From: a virus
Virus record (IMG/VR): IMGVR_UViG_3300037041_002243
Span: 1 to 36,823 of that record
Direction: 5' to 3' (one strand)
DNA length: 36,823 nucleotides
Within the stretch, counting starts at the first letter, position 1. Every line of letters starts with the position of its first letter. Shown one piece after another: positions 9,196 to 21,024 of the stretch. The notes under the pieces were generated by a model, which did not search any database, had not been told where the DNA came from, and worked only from the letters and a program-made list of their open reading frames with translations. The position numbers were made by a program, and so were the translations under genes.

Positions 9196-10287
9196 ATGCA
9201 AGAACTACACATAAATGAAGCGGCTGCAATACGAAACGCAAACCGTGTTTTTGTGCACGATGGCTCGCAGTATCGTGAAGCAAAAAGAATTTTCATTCAT
9301 GATGGAAATTCATGGGTTGAGTCATTCCGAAATATGCTTGTCCACACCATCTACCCAACCATCAATGGGTCGGTGGCGTCGGATAATGGGCAATTGACCT
9401 ATTGCTCTGGGTATTTCTATACTATTTGCCGATTTATTTATTCGCTATCCCCAACCGTTAGGCATTACGGGATTTTTCAATTAAACACATCAACGTGGGA
9501 ATGGAGTCTTATTTACGATCTTGGAGTAAATAATCCATATATATCTTGCGAAGAGTCTGGAGTTATGTATTTAACCTTGGATGTCAGTGGAACGTATAAG
9601 GCGTATTCATACTATGGAGGCACCCTTACCTTCCTCAAAGACCTGCCGTCCGGAGTTAGAACCTACATCGTCTGCGGAGGAACGATATACCCAACAGGAT
9701 ACCGGTGGAACGGATCTGCATGGGTTTCGATTGGAACTCCTTCAGGAATGACTTCAATGTGGGAAATGTACAATGTCGCTGGTACACTGTACGCTTCGTG
9801 GAAAAATTCTTCAACATACTACTCTGGATTGTATCAGTGGGGCGGATCGTCTTGGTCCATAGTTGGAAACACCATCCCAGGGGAACAATTTGGGAAACCC
9901 CGATATTTTCTTGTTGGCGGTACGTGGTATGCGATTGGATTCAGATATGATGTAAAATATCTTTCCGGTGGCGCGTGGACAGATGTGCCGAATTCTGGAT
10001 CAGGAAGTGAAGTAGCGTACAGTGATGGCTTCGTTTGCGGAGTTTCTATTTTCTTCAGAAGGTGGAATTACAGAAATCAATACGCTTTGGGTATGTGTGA
10101 ATTCAACACCTATACTGGTGTTTTTTCCACAATTTCAACACTACCGTATCCATTTTGTAACCCCGTTTGGACATACTCCGACATGAACAATCACACTGAA
10201 AAGTACGGTGGTAAGTTTATTATGCAAGATACAGGGGATGATACCTATTTTCATGGTTATTTGTTTTGGGACGGTCCATTAACTTAA
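9196..10287 (+). CDS. Probable receptor-binding protein with kelch-like beta-propeller
   Basis: A 363-residue protein at the end of the late operon. The N-terminus carries two copies of a short unit (RVFVHDGSQYREAKRIF then RIFIHDGNSWVES) of the type that anchors many phage fibre proteins. Residues 60-360 hold repeated segments with W-[EI]-W or G-x-x-W and YxxGG pairs (YRWNGSAWVSIG, YQWGGSSWSIVG, KYLSGGAWTDVP). These fit blades of a kelch-like propeller. Gene composition is A+T-rich and Tyr/Trp-rich, unlike the tail core genes, suggesting separate acquisition. No ribosome site is obvious between the previous stop (one base earlier) and the ATG, so translation is probably coupled. Confidence 0.68.
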   Translation: MQELHINEAAAIRNANRVFVHDGSQYREAKRIFIHDGNSWVESFRNMLVHTIYPTINGSVASDNGQLTYCSGYFYTICRFIYSLSPTVRHYGIFQLNTSTWEWSLIYDLGVNNPYISCEESGVMYLTLDVSGTYKAYSYYGGTLTFLKDLPSGVRTYIVCGGTIYPTGYRWNGSAWVSIGTPSGMTSMWEMYNVAGTLYASWKNSSTYYSGLYQWGGSSWSIVGNTIPGEQFGKPRYFLVGGTWYAIGFRYDVKYLSGGAWTDVPNSGSGSEVAYSDGFVCGVSIFFRRWNYRNQYALGMCEFNTYTGVFSTISTLPYPFCNPVWTYSDMNNHTEKYGGKFIMQDTGDDTYFHGYLFWDGPLT

Positions 10288-10344: not shown

Positions 10345-10800
10345 TCACTGCGCAACACTCTGCCTCGTCGCCTCAGTAACCCTCAAGGTGAACCAACACC
10401 GACTAACGCTTTGTGGTGCGTTTTGTAAGTCCAAATATACATAAAAAACACCCGCCTGACGTGGAACGCCCGTAATCTTTATATCAAAAGCGTTCGCAAC
10501 ATTGGAAACGCGATGACTGAGGTCGAACTCCATGCCGTCAGGTAGGTTGTTTGATGTCTGAATATGAATGCACGAAGAGGAAATCGAAAGAACAATCGGA
10601 GTCTCACTCCCAACCACAGCGGAAATCTCGCGTGTGGTCAAAATCGTTGGCTGACCAGTCACCCATCTATCAGCAGGCCGACCGTTCGGATCTTGCCCTG
10701 TGGTTGCTGGCGGAGTAGTCGCCTTGTAATCAGGATAATCCCCCAAATCCTGACACCCAACCAGCACCAATAACCAAAAGACCGCCAAACTGATTTTCAT
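10345..10800 (-). CDS. Phage-encoded lipoprotein with Ig-like domain
   Basis: The start is the ATG at 10800, preceded by a strong ribosome site (GGAGGG, 4 bases upstream), so upstream in-frame codons are ignored. The product is 151 residues. It has a signal peptide (KISLAVFWLLVLVGCQ) with lipobox L-V-G-C and Cys16 as the lipidation site. Gln at +2 gives no inner-membrane retention Asp. A Pro/Thr linker follows, then a putative-Ig type domain with the pattern LPDGMEFD ... ITGVPRQAGVFYVYLDL. It is read opposite to the late operon. Exported lipoproteins next to fibre genes are often superinfection-exclusion proteins (such as T5 Llp, as family knowledge); that role here is inferred. Confidence 0.83.
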   Translation of the reverse strand: MKISLAVFWLLVLVGCQDLGDYPDYKATTPPATTGQDPNGRPADRWVTGQPTILTTREISAVVGSETPIVLSISSSCIHIQTSNNLPDGMEFDLSHRVSNVANAFDIKITGVPRQAGVFYVYLDLQNAPQSVSRCWFTLRVTEATRQSVAQ

Positions 10801-10884: not shown

Positions 10885-11559
10885 TCACGACGCCAAGCAC
10901 AATTTCACCAAATCCAAATCAATCCCAAAAGTTTGCACCCCGCGCAGTACGGCCCACCATTTGTGCGAACCACTGCAATCCACCCCAGACTCTTCGGAGT
11001 CTGGGGTGTTTGTTTGTGGGATGTAGAGCGATAAGTGCAGCTTTTTGCGTGAGATTCTGATTTTTTCGCAGAGGCCGGAAAGGATTTCGTTGATGGTTTG
11101 AATGTCGGTGGTTTGTAGAGTGTTTTGCACCCTTTTGATCACCATATCTATCATGGTTATGTGGCCTGCTGTGACTTCTTTGGCGGCTATTTCGCCTTCC
11201 TTTTTGGCGATTTGGTGCTCTATGTCGTCCAGGGATCGCTGGGCGGTGGTGATTTGGGCGACCATGCCTTTTCGGTAAGTTGGGGCGATGTCTTCACCGG
11301 CGACGAAGTCGATGAGGCGTTTGAGTTTTTGACTGGCGTGGTTCTTTGCTGTGACCAGGGCGTTCATTTCTTCACGATATACGGGGAGTTCAACGGCCAT
11401 AGGTTCGCCGGGTTTTCTTGACCCTGCTTTTACATCAGTGATCCATCGTCTGTCTTTTCCTAACATGGTTGCAAGTTGTTTCTGGTCAATTCTTTGTGGA
11501 GAATTGGTCAATGCCATCTCAAGTCTTTGAGCAAGCGAACTCATGCTTTTACCATACAT
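10885..11559 (-). CDS. HTH regulator fused to a serine-recombinase-like coiled-coil tail
   Basis: The frame is open from 11706. I place the start at the ATG 11559, with a GGGGA ribosome-like site 7 bases upstream; 11544 is an alternative. The product is 224 residues. Residues 6-50 resemble a Cro/CI HTH (QKQLATMLGKDRRWITDVKA). Residues 55-165 are coiled coil with a pattern like the C-terminal tail of large serine recombinases (ASQKLKRLIDFVAGEDIAP, then NEILSGLCEKIRIS and HLSLYI). No catalytic Ser/Arg resolvase domain is present. The last 35 codons run through a perfect hairpin (10981-11008) and read KWWAV, so the true C-terminus may be a readthrough of non-coding DNA. A repressor is likely, given the divergent neighbour. 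Confidence 0.6.
   Translation of the reverse strand: MYGKSMSSLAQRLEMALTNSPQRIDQKQLATMLGKDRRWITDVKAGSRKPGEPMAVELPVYREEMNALVTAKNHASQKLKRLIDFVAGEDIAPTYRKGMVAQITTAQRSLDDIEHQIAKKEGEIAAKEVTAGHITMIDMVIKRVQNTLQTTDIQTINEILSGLCEKIRISRKKLHLSLYIPQTNTPDSEESGVDCSGSHKWWAVLRGVQTFGIDLDLVKLCLAS
10981..11017 (+). terminator. Intrinsic terminator, C(UUCG)G hairpin
   Basis: A perfect 12-bp stem (CACCCCAGACTC and its complement, 10981-10992 and 10997-11008) has a TTCG loop closed by C-G, the extra-stable tetraloop. It is followed on the plus strand by TTTGTTTGT. Plus-strand direction is indicated by the loop and the U-rich tail. It would stop late transcription that has passed through the lipoprotein gene antisense. 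On the minus strand there is no U tail. Confidence 0.8.
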
Positions 11560-11585: not shown

Positions 11586-11621
11586 TTGACACCGTAGACT
11601 TGTCCCTAGACTTGTTTACCA
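11586..11621 (+). promoter_or_regulatory. Divergent control site with paired direct repeats and possible promoter
   Basis: A consensus TTGACA (11586-11591) lies 15 bp before TAGACT (11607-11612), itself 8 bp before the ATG at 11621. TAGACTTGT occurs twice with a 12-bp period (11595-11603 and 11607-11615), covering the spacer and -10. It lies between the regulator start (11559, minus) and the plus-strand frame at 11621. Operator use by the HTH protein is inferred. The short 15-bp spacing makes the promoter weak or regulated. Confidence 0.45.
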
Positions 11622-11983
11622 TGAGCACAAACGACCCCAAAAACAAACAGTCCGAAAAAGTTTCATCAAATATAGATTGGATTGATGAAATTATTGCCAT
11701 TCTCAAAAAAGGCGAAGAAAAAACGAATGCTTTTTGGACTGAAGTTTCAATTGCCTATATTTCGTCCCTTAATTTTAATTTGTCGCATCTCGACGTAAAC
11801 GGACAAAAGAAACTTTCGGAAATCATCCTGAGCAAGGAGGTTTCTGAACTTTGTCTCTTCGTTTGCAGTCATTTCAATGTCGATATCAAAAATCTGCAAA
11901 ATGTAGGGCAGATATTTCGGGATTTCCTCATCAATTTGATTTCGGTCCATTCCAGTGACATGACAGAATGTTTCCCTGAATAA
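11621..11983 (+). CDS. Small acidic protein of the control region (competes with an antisense frame)
   Basis: A 120-residue frame starting MSTNDPKNKQSEKV. It has helix-forming stretches (DWIDEIIAILKKGEEKTNAFW and KKLSEIILSKEVSELCLFVC) and looks protein-like. Its first seven residues and the 21 bases around its ATG are the same as those of the HTH gene at 12066. There is no ribosome site before the ATG. The possible promoter ends 8 bases upstream, so a leaderless message is conceivable. It overlaps the opposite frame 11747-11998, which has a better ribosome site, and only one of the two may be expressed. No function is recognised. Confidence 0.45.
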   Translation: MSTNDPKNKQSEKVSSNIDWIDEIIAILKKGEEKTNAFWTEVSIAYISSLNFNLSHLDVNGQKKLSEIILSKEVSELCLFVCSHFNVDIKNLQNVGQIFRDFLINLISVHSSDMTECFPE

Positions 11984-11998
11984 TTCTCGACGTTTCAT
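11747..11998 (-). CDS. Small antisense protein of the control region
   Basis: An 83-residue frame from the ATG at 11998, with a good ribosome site (AAAAAGGA, 7 bases upstream). It begins MKRRELFRETFCHVTG and continues with a helical acidic core (DEEIPKYLPYILQIFDIDIE, FRNLLAQDDFRKFLLSVYVE). It overlaps most of 11621-11983 in antisense. The strong ribosome site favours it as a real gene. It would be read in the same direction as the HTH regulator and could belong to its transcript. No family is recognised. Confidence 0.5.
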   Translation of the reverse strand: MKRRELFRETFCHVTGMDRNQIDEEIPKYLPYILQIFDIDIEMTANEETKFRNLLAQDDFRKFLLSVYVEMRQIKIKGRNIGN

Positions 11999-12065
11999 GA
12001 TAGATCCTTTTTGAGTGATCAAAAACCTACTCCTGATCTAAAAATCGCAAACGGAAGCAAATACC

Positions 12066-12272
12066 ATGAGCACAAACGACCCAAAAAAAGCGCGTCTGGA
12101 ACTTTTACTTACCCAAGAGCAACTGGCAGAGAAGGCCGGTATAAGTCGGTACCTGGTCTGCCAGTGCGAAGCATCCGGTCGCTGGCCGCAGCACGACCTG
12201 ACCCGTCACAAATACCTCCGCGCCTTGGGAATCGATCCCGCATCGGTCGAGTTGGAGGTGGCACATGGGTAA
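12066..12272 (+). CDS. Cro-like HTH regulator
   Basis: A 68-residue protein with a GGAAG ribosome site (12053-12057). It is a single helix-turn-helix: TQEQLAEKAGISRYLVCQCE corresponds to the two HTH helices of the Cro/CI family, followed by WPQHDLTRHKYLRALGI. The length is that of a Cro-type protein, with no dimerisation or cleavage domain. It is read away from the minus-strand regulator at 10885-11559, as in a temperate-phage switch. It overlaps the next small gene by 8 bases. Its 5' end, including the ATG, is duplicated at 11617-11637. Confidence 0.75.
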   Translation: MSTNDPKKARLELLLTQEQLAEKAGISRYLVCQCEASGRWPQHDLTRHKYLRALGIDPASVELEVAHG

Positions 12273-18483: not shown

Positions 18484-19086
18484 ATGTATTCCAAAAAATA
18501 CTATGAAGAACACAGGGAAGAACTTTTAGAAAAGAAGAGAAATTACAATGAAAAACACAAAGAAGAATCGCGAAAATACAGAGAAAAACACAAGGAAGAA
18601 ATTAAACTAAGGAAAAGAAAATATGAAGAAAAACATAAGGAAGAACATAAACTAAGGAAAAGAAAATACTACGAAAAACACAAGGAAGAAATTAAACTAA
18701 GAAATAGAAAATACAAAGAAAAACACAAGGAAGAACACTTAGCACTGGGTCGAAAATACGGGCGAAAACACTATGAAAAACACAAGGAAAAAATCCTAGC
18801 AAGGATGCGAGAATACAGAGAAAAACATAAAGAAAAAATCAGCGAACAAAGAAGAGAAAAATCGCGAAAATACAGAGAAAAATACAGGGTGAAACTCTCA
18901 GAAAAAAGACAAGAAGAAAAAAAATCCAAAAAAATCCAAAAATATCAAACCAATATCAAACTCGCCCTCACCTTCCTCAAAGCCAACAACCCATGTCAGC
19001 CATCGACCTCCAATCCATCGCCATCGCAAACCTCCGAAAACGCGCCGAGGCCGGTGAAAAACTCTCCGAATTCGAATGGTCCCTGA
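18484..19086 (+). CDS. Lys/Glu-rich helical repeat protein
   Basis: The start is set at the ATG 18484, after GATGAT, 4 bases beyond the previous stop. The product is 200 residues. Residues 1-150 are almost wholly charged, with repeats of KY-x-EKHKEE-x-KLRKR. This predicts a long single alpha-helix or coiled coil. The last 50 residues are Ser/Pro/Asn-rich and overlap the first 94 bases of the next gene. Base composition is strikingly A+T- and purine-rich against its neighbours. Similar Lys/Glu/Tyr repeat proteins occur in many phages without known function. It may bind DNA or another phage protein. Confidence 0.65.
   Translation: MYSKKYYEEHREELLEKKRNYNEKHKEESRKYREKHKEEIKLRKRKYEEKHKEEHKLRKRKYYEKHKEEIKLRNRKYKEKHKEEHLALGRKYGRKHYEKHKEKILARMREYREKHKEKISEQRREKSRKYREKYRVKLSEKRQEEKKSKKIQKYQTNIKLALTFLKANNPCQPSTSNPSPSQTSENAPRPVKNSPNSNGP
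18574..18753 (+). repeat. Four tandem 45-bp units encoding KYxEKHKEE repeats
   Basis: Residues 31-90 of the helical protein are four consecutive 15-residue units, encoded by about 45-bp repeats that are highly similar at the DNA level. Each has an AAATA[CT] start and an AAACA[CT]AAGGAAGAA core. Related, less regular units extend on both sides. Such arrays expand or contract by recombination. Confidence 0.75.
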
Positions 19087-19775
19087 TCACCACCGCCGCC
19101 CAGGCAGAACGCCCCGACCCAATCGCCGACCTCGCCAAAAACCTCACCGAGCAACTCACCAAGATCCAAGCCGAAGGCAAGAAACCAGGTGCCAATCTCC
19201 TCAAAGCAGCTCAAGAGGCCCTGAAATCTGCCCAAGGCGCCACGATCTGGACTGATGCCGCGTCATGCGCCCAAGAACTCGGCATCAGCGTCCAGACCGC
19301 CCGCAATTGGCTTGGCGAACTCGGCATCCCCTCTGCCCGGACCTCGATCTCCAAAATCGAAGTCTATAAGGGCCTCTGGATCCGAGAACGCGACAGCATC
19401 GGCAAAGCCACCGCCCCAACCAGCGACGCCGACGACCGAGAACAAGAACTGCGCATCGCCGAACGCCAAGCCCGCGTTGATGAACGCACCCAGCGCCTGG
19501 TCGCAGTCGCCAATGACGCCGCCAAGGCAGGCCTCATCACCGCCGTCAGGGACATCAGATCGCCCCTCATCAACGGCCTCCCCAGCCGTCTTGCCGATGT
19601 CCTGGCCACTGACCAAGACCGGATCCAATGGGAAGGCAAGGCCCGCAAAATCATATCTGACCAACTAGAACACATCTGCGCAACCCTCACCCCCGAGAAC
19701 CTCAACCAGAAAGGCGCCACCAATGGCCAAACGCAAAACCCCACCCAAAAAGCCCAGCCCACTCAAAAGGCCTGA
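18993..19775 (+). CDS. terS: Terminase small subunit, lambda Nu1-like
   Basis: A 260-residue protein. Residues 1-80 are a helical extension. Residues 85-130 form an HTH with a Nu1-like pattern (ELGISVQTARNWLGELGIPS, then a marker strand and YKGLWIRERD, compare lambda gpNu1 'IRTIQNWQEQGMPV...YAERD'). A coiled section (REQELRIAERQARVDERTQR) follows. A later segment GLPSRLADVLATDQDRIQWE matches the place of Nu1's 'GLPLSVQRRFPEL'. The C-terminus is Gln/Thr-rich. It should bind the packaging start site. Unusually, the large subunit lies 2.5 kb downstream, with ParB-like and SSB genes between. It overlaps the next gene by 53 bases. Confidence 0.7.
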   Translation: MSAIDLQSIAIANLRKRAEAGEKLSEFEWSLITTAAQAERPDPIADLAKNLTEQLTKIQAEGKKPGANLLKAAQEALKSAQGATIWTDAASCAQELGISVQTARNWLGELGIPSARTSISKIEVYKGLWIRERDSIGKATAPTSDADDREQELRIAERQARVDERTQRLVAVANDAAKAGLITAVRDIRSPLINGLPSRLADVLATDQDRIQWEGKARKIISDQLEHICATLTPENLNQKGATNGQTQNPTQKAQPTQKA

Positions 19776-21024
19776 GCCCAACCGCGTCGATATGCCCATC
19801 GACCACCTGATCCTCTCGCGGGACCTCCAACCCCGCGCAAGGCTCAATCCCGAAACCGTCGCCGAATACGCGGAAATCTACCGCATCGGAGGCCTCAACG
19901 CCATGGAACCGATCCGCGCCTTCACCGACAAAAACGGTGACGCGATTCTGACCCGTGGATTCACCCGCGTCGCCGCCGCCCGCGAAGCAAAACTCACCCA
20001 CCTCCCCTGCGACCTCTACCCAGAACCTGAAGAAGAAATCGACATCCTTCTCGACTCCCTGTCAGGCAACAAACACGGCCAAAAACTCACCAACGCCGAC
20101 AAACAACGCGCCCTTGAACTCTACCATTCCAAAGTCGAAGTAAAACTCTGGGGCACCACGCGTGAAGTCTCCATGCTTTTGGGATGCTCCCACGACCTGG
20201 TCGCAGAATACCGAAAGAAACTCAGCGCCCCGGCCAGGGAAGAAACTCCAGAACCAAAACAAGGAAAAATCGAAACCGCCCCATACCAAAAGGCAAATGT
20301 TCACAATGCCTCACCAATTTTAGACATGGAAGGAATTGAACAACTCGCCACCGACCTTTGCAAAAACATCAAATCGCTCACCATGGAAGAGGCAATGGTC
20401 CTCTCCATCCTCTGGGATCTTCAGGCCTTCGCCGGATCATCAGCCCTCTGCGCCATCGTCCGCAACACCATGCCAACACAACCAGACGAAGAAGACTTCA
20501 TCGAACTGATCGAAGACTTCCGCCAGAGTTGTTACATCGAAAGCGAAGGTGACGAATTCCTCTGGCTCACCGAAGAAGGCCAAAAAGAAATCCTCAGCAC
20601 CCTCAACAAACGCCCACCAAGCCAATCCCCAAAGGAACCCCAAACCCAAGTCACTACCCGCCACGAAACCCCAGAACAACCCAAAGAACCAAAACGAAAC
20701 CCCACCGCCACCATCGACAAGGCCCGCGAAATCCTCGCCGACCGCATCGTCGAAGAACCCATGCGCGCATTCCGCATCCCAGGCCGTCAAAGGGAAATCT
20801 ACCTCCTTGCCTGCATCGTCGGCATCGACTCAAACGGCATGCTGCAATGGGGCGACAGCGACCTCGATGCGGCAGAACTCGCCTTCGCCCAAGGCCTCGC
20901 CAAACGCACCGCCGAAGAACTCAAACGAGGCAACGAAAGAATCGGCACCATCGGCAGCATCGCCCTCCTCTGGGACCTCGACCCCAACGCCATCATGATC
21001 CTGGCAGAAAGGGCGACAAAATGA
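19723..21024 (+). CDS. ParB-like protein
   Basis: A 433-residue protein. Residues 20-125 are a ParB/Srx N-terminal domain: MPIDHLILSRDLQPRARLNP, then DAILTRGFTRVAAAREAKL (box-II-like G-x-x-R-x-x-A-A) and LDSLSGNKHGQKLTNADKQR. An HTH-like part follows (SMLLGCSHDLVAEYRKKL). Residues 215-310 are helical and acidic. After a Pro/Thr/Gln linker the C-terminal 100 residues are helical. No ParA is encoded nearby, so plasmid-type partitioning is not shown. In phages such proteins act in replication, regulation or DNA binding. It overlaps the small terminase gene and is coupled to the next gene by ATGA. Confidence 0.75.
   Translation: MAKRKTPPKKPSPLKRPEPNRVDMPIDHLILSRDLQPRARLNPETVAEYAEIYRIGGLNAMEPIRAFTDKNGDAILTRGFTRVAAAREAKLTHLPCDLYPEPEEEIDILLDSLSGNKHGQKLTNADKQRALELYHSKVEVKLWGTTREVSMLLGCSHDLVAEYRKKLSAPAREETPEPKQGKIETAPYQKANVHNASPILDMEGIEQLATDLCKNIKSLTMEEAMVLSILWDLQAFAGSSALCAIVRNTMPTQPDEEDFIELIEDFRQSCYIESEGDEFLWLTEEGQKEILSTLNKRPPSQSPKEPQTQVTTRHETPEQPKEPKRNPTATIDKAREILADRIVEEPMRAFRIPGRQREIYLLACIVGIDSNGMLQWGDSDLDAAELAFAQGLAKRTAEELKRGNERIGTIGSIALLWDLDPNAIMILAERATK

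Follow-up and report, generated by a model that had tools for sequence, protein, structure and literature searches.

In MerR-family regulators an antiparallel coiled coil comes after the helix-turn-helix (HTH), and the CI-type repressors of the HTH_3 family join an N-terminal HTH, in many but not all members, to a LexA-type peptidase. In the large serine recombinases (LSRs), the phage serine integrases such as those of LI/A118 and phiC31, a coiled-coil hairpin is followed by a helix and a beta hairpin; the coil, which is part of the zinc domain, connects dimers bound to DNA (PMC3783163, PMC5814800). A recombinase fold may also serve in a lysogeny repressor. The precedent is MrpR of Bacillus phage SPbeta, a protein of tyrosine-recombinase fold that lacks recombinase activity (PMC10516654).

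The window analysed here, 36,823 bases, is the whole of virus record IMGVR_UViG_3300037041_002243. It bears an exact 127-base direct terminal repeat, and the genome is thus probably complete, at 36,696 bp, and closes on itself. Its gene P0001 (10885..11559, minus strand, 224 aa) is, judging by profile matches, probably a chimera. The account which we favour, with somewhat more belief than doubt, is that of a chimeric regulator in which a CI-type HTH head has been joined to an integrase coiled coil captured for oligomerisation.

When P0001 is set against the systems above, the elements of its tail follow one another as in LSRs (coil hairpin, helix, beta hairpin) and are spaced almost alike, whereas the resolvase catalytic domain with its serine nucleophile (PF00239), the recombinase domain (PF07508) and the zinc ribbon are absent and an HTH stands in front instead. 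Relative to CI-type repressors, the N-terminal HTH is of about the right length and a Cro-like gene lies nearby on the other strand, but the C-terminal domain is an LSR-like coil rather than a LexA-type peptidase; searches of Pfam, PHROGs and NCBIfam gave no match in this part of the protein, to the LexA-type (S24) self-cleaving domain or to any other. The order of HTH and coil is shared with the MerR family, from which P0001 differs in having no Pfam match to the MerR winged HTH (PF00376/PF13411) and in its LSR-like post-coil beta hairpin. MrpR is similar, as we read P0001, in being recombinase-derived and in controlling lysogeny without recombinase activity. However, MrpR binds DNA by its tyrosine-recombinase fold, while P0001 keeps only a serine-recombinase tail and would rely on a separate HTH for DNA binding.

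The frame of P0001 is open from an ATG at 11559 to a stop at 10885-10887, and is preceded by a good ribosome-binding site (GGGGA, then six bases, then the ATG). With 15 large genes of the same phage as training set for codon statistics, the in-frame score is positive over the whole frame. Residues 57-182 score +0.58 bits per codon with no stop, and are clearly coding; the HTH head, residues 1-56, is near-neutral at about zero; and residues 183-224 (10888..11013, minus strand) score -0.36 bits per codon, a measure which is not absolute, as the likely lipoprotein gene at 10345-10800 is negative too. The score falls at the point where similarity to LSRs stops, at residue 182-183, which adjoins a perfect 12-bp hairpin (10981..11008) identified by repeat search. 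The hairpin has a TTCG loop and a T-rich stretch on its plus side, and is oriented like a putative terminator for the plus strand. Residues 183-224 may be unselected read-through. No tRNA was found at the end of the gene, and an exact 20-base pattern taken from there was unmatched in viral contigs.

The head (residues 1-56; 11392..11559, minus strand), with predicted helices at residues 5-19, 26-35 and 38-44, is likely to be an HTH, perhaps of Cro/CI type, on the grounds of its profile matches. Pfam HTH_3 aligns to residues 1-65 with 16.0 bits (E 0.012), under its cut-off of 23. A viral repressor HTH profile scores the head at 11.4-15.7 bits, which none of 2,000 shuffles attained; it was built from HTH genes found upstream of viral LSRs. 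The sequence-only reading of this stretch had noted the Cro/CI look of the first residues, and a weak HTH over some 56 residues is indeed what these searches recover.

The same reading had described a serine-recombinase-like tail. In standard libraries (Pfam, PHROGs, NCBIfam and PDB sequences) nothing connects this part of P0001 with LSRs, and we consequently collected LSRs, 30 from Ectobacillus-phylum genomes and others from three viral scans of at most 80 loci each, and built custom profiles from them. As the LSR-tail profile was enlarged the score of P0001 rose, from 13.8 bits with 68 viral tails to 20.3 bits with 67 better anchored tails; a profile of 98 viral-contig tails gave 19.3-24.3 bits, depending on weighting, which falls in the range of true distant LSR tails. 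The match spans residues 63-183 of P0001 and positions 42-153 of the profile. With every weighting of the 98-tail profile P0001 ranked first of 3,661 control ORFs, at least 80 residues long, which come from T4, E. coli and the regions flanking LSR loci and include many non-genic frames; generic coils among them reached 15.9-17.4 bits at best. The E-values involved are optimistic, as several profiles and weightings were tried. The tail is thus visible to custom profiles over residues ~63-182 and invisible in standard libraries, and the proposed fusion of HTH and LSR tail stands to that extent.

How specific this similarity is bears directly on a rival account, according to which P0001 is an ordinary phage regulator of HTH and coiled coil, MerR-like in layout, whose likeness to LSRs is a convergence of coil pattern. 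The missing library match already speaks for it, as does the behaviour of the coil taken alone, which is unspecific (P0001 ranks 27-123 among the control ORFs). Plain shuffles never attained the tail score (0/1,000), and class-preserving shuffles, in which the pattern of hydrophobic and charged residues is retained, did so in 0-2 of 1,000; the latter nevertheless come close, at up to 19-23 bits, and most of the LSR-tail signal is consequently pattern. Likewise, in an AUC test of single-sequence searches, pattern-preserving shuffles separated LSRs nearly as well as P0001 did, and an independent small profile, made from 11 clostridial LSR tails only, did not separate P0001. A repetitive generic coil (L285) obtained 28 bits, summed over two domains and on the coil part only.

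Convergence accounts less readily for the post-coil helix and beta hairpin (residues 153-182; 11014..11103, minus strand), a module specific to LSRs. Alone, this part places P0001 first among the 3,661 ORFs if the weights are set (E about 0.05) and 45th if they are left at default. The best-separating test is a single match running through coil and post-coil, in which P0001 scores 18.4-22.7 bits and the next control ORF 5.5-7.5, so that P0001 is the only one of the 3,661 to match both parts well. In alignment its tail is colinear with 42 LSR tails, the post-coil helix and beta hairpin included. A comparison of P0001 with LSR tails by hhalign gave a probability of 52.6, where 80 shuffles gave at most 22.7. 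Identity to LSR tails is at most 19%, the value found for the closest single LSR (L126, in IMGVR_UViG_3300033406_000385; 14.2 bits). We regard the tail as probably homologous to LSR tails by these profile comparisons, the relation being a distant one, and convergence as rather unlikely.

Structure models agree with this in part. An antiparallel coiled-coil hairpin (residues 59-148; 11116..11385, minus strand) appears in the AF2 models, and from the single sequence it is predicted confidently, with little else (pLDDT 81-93 over residues 61-120, then 69 and 50 over 121-140). When 42 LSR tails were supplied as alignment, pLDDT rose to 81-98 over residues 61-150 and the tail acquired a beta hairpin at 164-178; the head remained at 50-67, and residues 190-224, mostly unstructured, below 50. 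The three helices of the head are present in both models, at low confidence. Foldseek returned generic coils only for the single-sequence model, as convergence would have it, and chains of 4kis, an LSR-DNA complex, as top PDB matches for the LSR-guided one (E 0.13-0.26). An LSR alignment carries the LSR idea into the model, and both the guided model and the 4kis match are thus a matter of consistency: the predicted structure is only compatible with the LSR fold.

Genomic setting provides a further argument against convergence. Integration modules are often sited between the late genes and the early region, and P0001 occupies such a place, the last plus-strand late gene ending at 10287. The gene thus sits where an integrase would be expected, in a genome having no other: neither the serine recombinase domain PF00239 nor the tyrosine recombinase domain PF00589 was found, and a six-frame scan of the genome gave no further LSR fragment outside the P0001 frame. 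That no catalytic domain lies in this frame or elsewhere had been claimed beforehand, and holds. With each of three full-length LSR profiles the P0001 frame is the best match of the genome, although it scores no more than about 5 bits. Elsewhere the genome encodes a GpA-type terminase, a portal, a head maturation protease, a major head protein, a D5-type primase-helicase and an SSB. Searches by primase or terminase found no relative of the phage in viral_contigs, and distant matches only in the phage collection.

Relatives of P0001 were absent from viral_contigs, phages and plasmids. Its sole match in genome_contigs (Ectobacillus, L002) was dismissed as chance, because it is based on a peptide, IDFVAGED, shared with a PstS-like phosphate-binding protein. 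Among 398 Ectobacillus-phylum genomes the tail gave three weak matches, two of which are FlhF-like and FliD-like proteins and were rejected; the third (L034) has one internal stop.

The arrangement of genes around viral LSRs suggests how such a chimera may have arisen. Among the viral LSR genes whose upstream neighbour could be read, 94 in all, 22-25 have an HTH gene directly upstream on the same strand, and in one case (L122) 50 nt separate a CI-like gene from the LSR that follows. With genes in this order, a single deletion would be enough to fuse the head of a repressor to the tail of an integrase, and this is the most likely origin of P0001. The deletion would have run from within the repressor gene into the integrase gene, head-to-tail on one strand, removing the catalytic, recombinase and zinc-ribbon parts of the source LSR and sparing its coiled coil and post-coil module. 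No intact ancestor of the fusion was seen. Among short LSR-tail frames of 199 genomes, 14 stretches were examined, none with a visible HTH head; they contain generic coils or LSR ends that are broken or orphaned, and no further gene with this fusion came to light. No LSR-tail repressor or HTH-LSR fusion was found in the open-access literature, and this argues only weakly for novelty.

Broken or orphan LSR tails (L275-L288) are frequent in the 199 genomes when searched with the tail alignment, and several end in GGGGNRTPVR-like peptides, as do many viral LSR frames. That isolated tails are common as broken bacterial genes supports the relic part of the origin proposed here. Taken to its limit, it suggests a second rival, in which P0001 is a functionless LSR remnant left as an unused open frame by deletion or decay; the frameshifted and orphan tails of bacterial genomes, the non-coding look of the last 42 codons and the sub-threshold HTH_3 match favour such a relic, but its frame is intact, its ribosome-binding site good and its tail strongly coding, and phage genomes usually shed dead DNA, so that we consider it unlikely. 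A recruited regulator and an integrase relic are, however, not mutually exclusive readings.

For the regulator itself, we hold the chances that it is a working one to be evenly balanced, and from its position and HTH it is plausibly the lysogeny repressor. P0001 would bind DNA through its HTH, the captured coil would pair or tetramerise it, and the resulting HTH-coil dimers or tetramers could bridge operators and so regulate the lysogeny region of the phage. A fuller version, which we put forward tentatively, is that a repressor HTH works together with the synapsis coil of a serine integrase that the phage itself once had in bridging operators, and that the product might also block the serine integrases of other phages via their coils or directionality factors. 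If the chimeric regulator is real, a phage losing its integrase can retain part of the enzyme as a regulator; P0001 would stand to the serine recombinases as the tyrosine-recombinase-like repressor MrpR stands to the tyrosine family, and the integrase coiled coil would be a portable oligomerisation module.

The Cro-like HTH gene (12066..12272, plus strand, 68 aa) matches phrog_7241, a transcriptional regulator family (E 4.8e-6), and HTH_3 with 24.8 bits, over the cut-off. P0001 had been placed opposite this gene; the two are on different strands and near one another, but not directly opposed, as some 500 bp, in which two ORFs overlap and conflict, lie between them. Two elements in this stretch are possible operators: a tandem 12-bp repeat, CCGTAGACTTGT/CCCTAGACTTGT, upstream of the P0001 gene (11592..11615; repeat search), of which the genome contains no further exact copy, and an 18-bp palindrome, TTTTTGAGTGATCAAAAA (12008..12025), between the minus-strand ORF starting at 11998 and the Cro-like gene, present in single copy in the genome.

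Codon scores do not decide between the overlapping ORFs, 11621-11983 on the plus strand and 11747-11998 on the minus strand. The latter has a good ribosome-binding site (AAAGGAT), and none is visible for the former. A near-identical 27-nt repeat (11617-11643 and 12062-12088) covers the starts of the 11621 ORF and the Cro-like gene, both of which consequently begin MSTNDPK; it is perhaps a partial duplication.

Some observations concern other parts of the genome. The minus-strand gene at 10345-10800, in the lysogeny region, probably encodes a lipoprotein, with a lipobox-like MKISLAVFWLLVLVGCQ and an Ig-like looking end. Its product has no Pfam or PHROGs match, and could conceivably act in superinfection exclusion. 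In this integrase-free genome, the frame at 19723-21024 weakly matches a ParB-like partition family (phrog_1033, E 1.7e-5), and a plasmid-like prophage state would fit this match; a Pfam search of the frame found no ParB domain. An A-rich repeat at 18494-18896, of nine overlapping copies mostly 45 nt apart within one ORF, would encode a lysine/glutamate-rich repeated peptide. Finally, repeats spaced at 63 nt or multiples of ~63 nt occur at 754-1250, in a likely structural gene.
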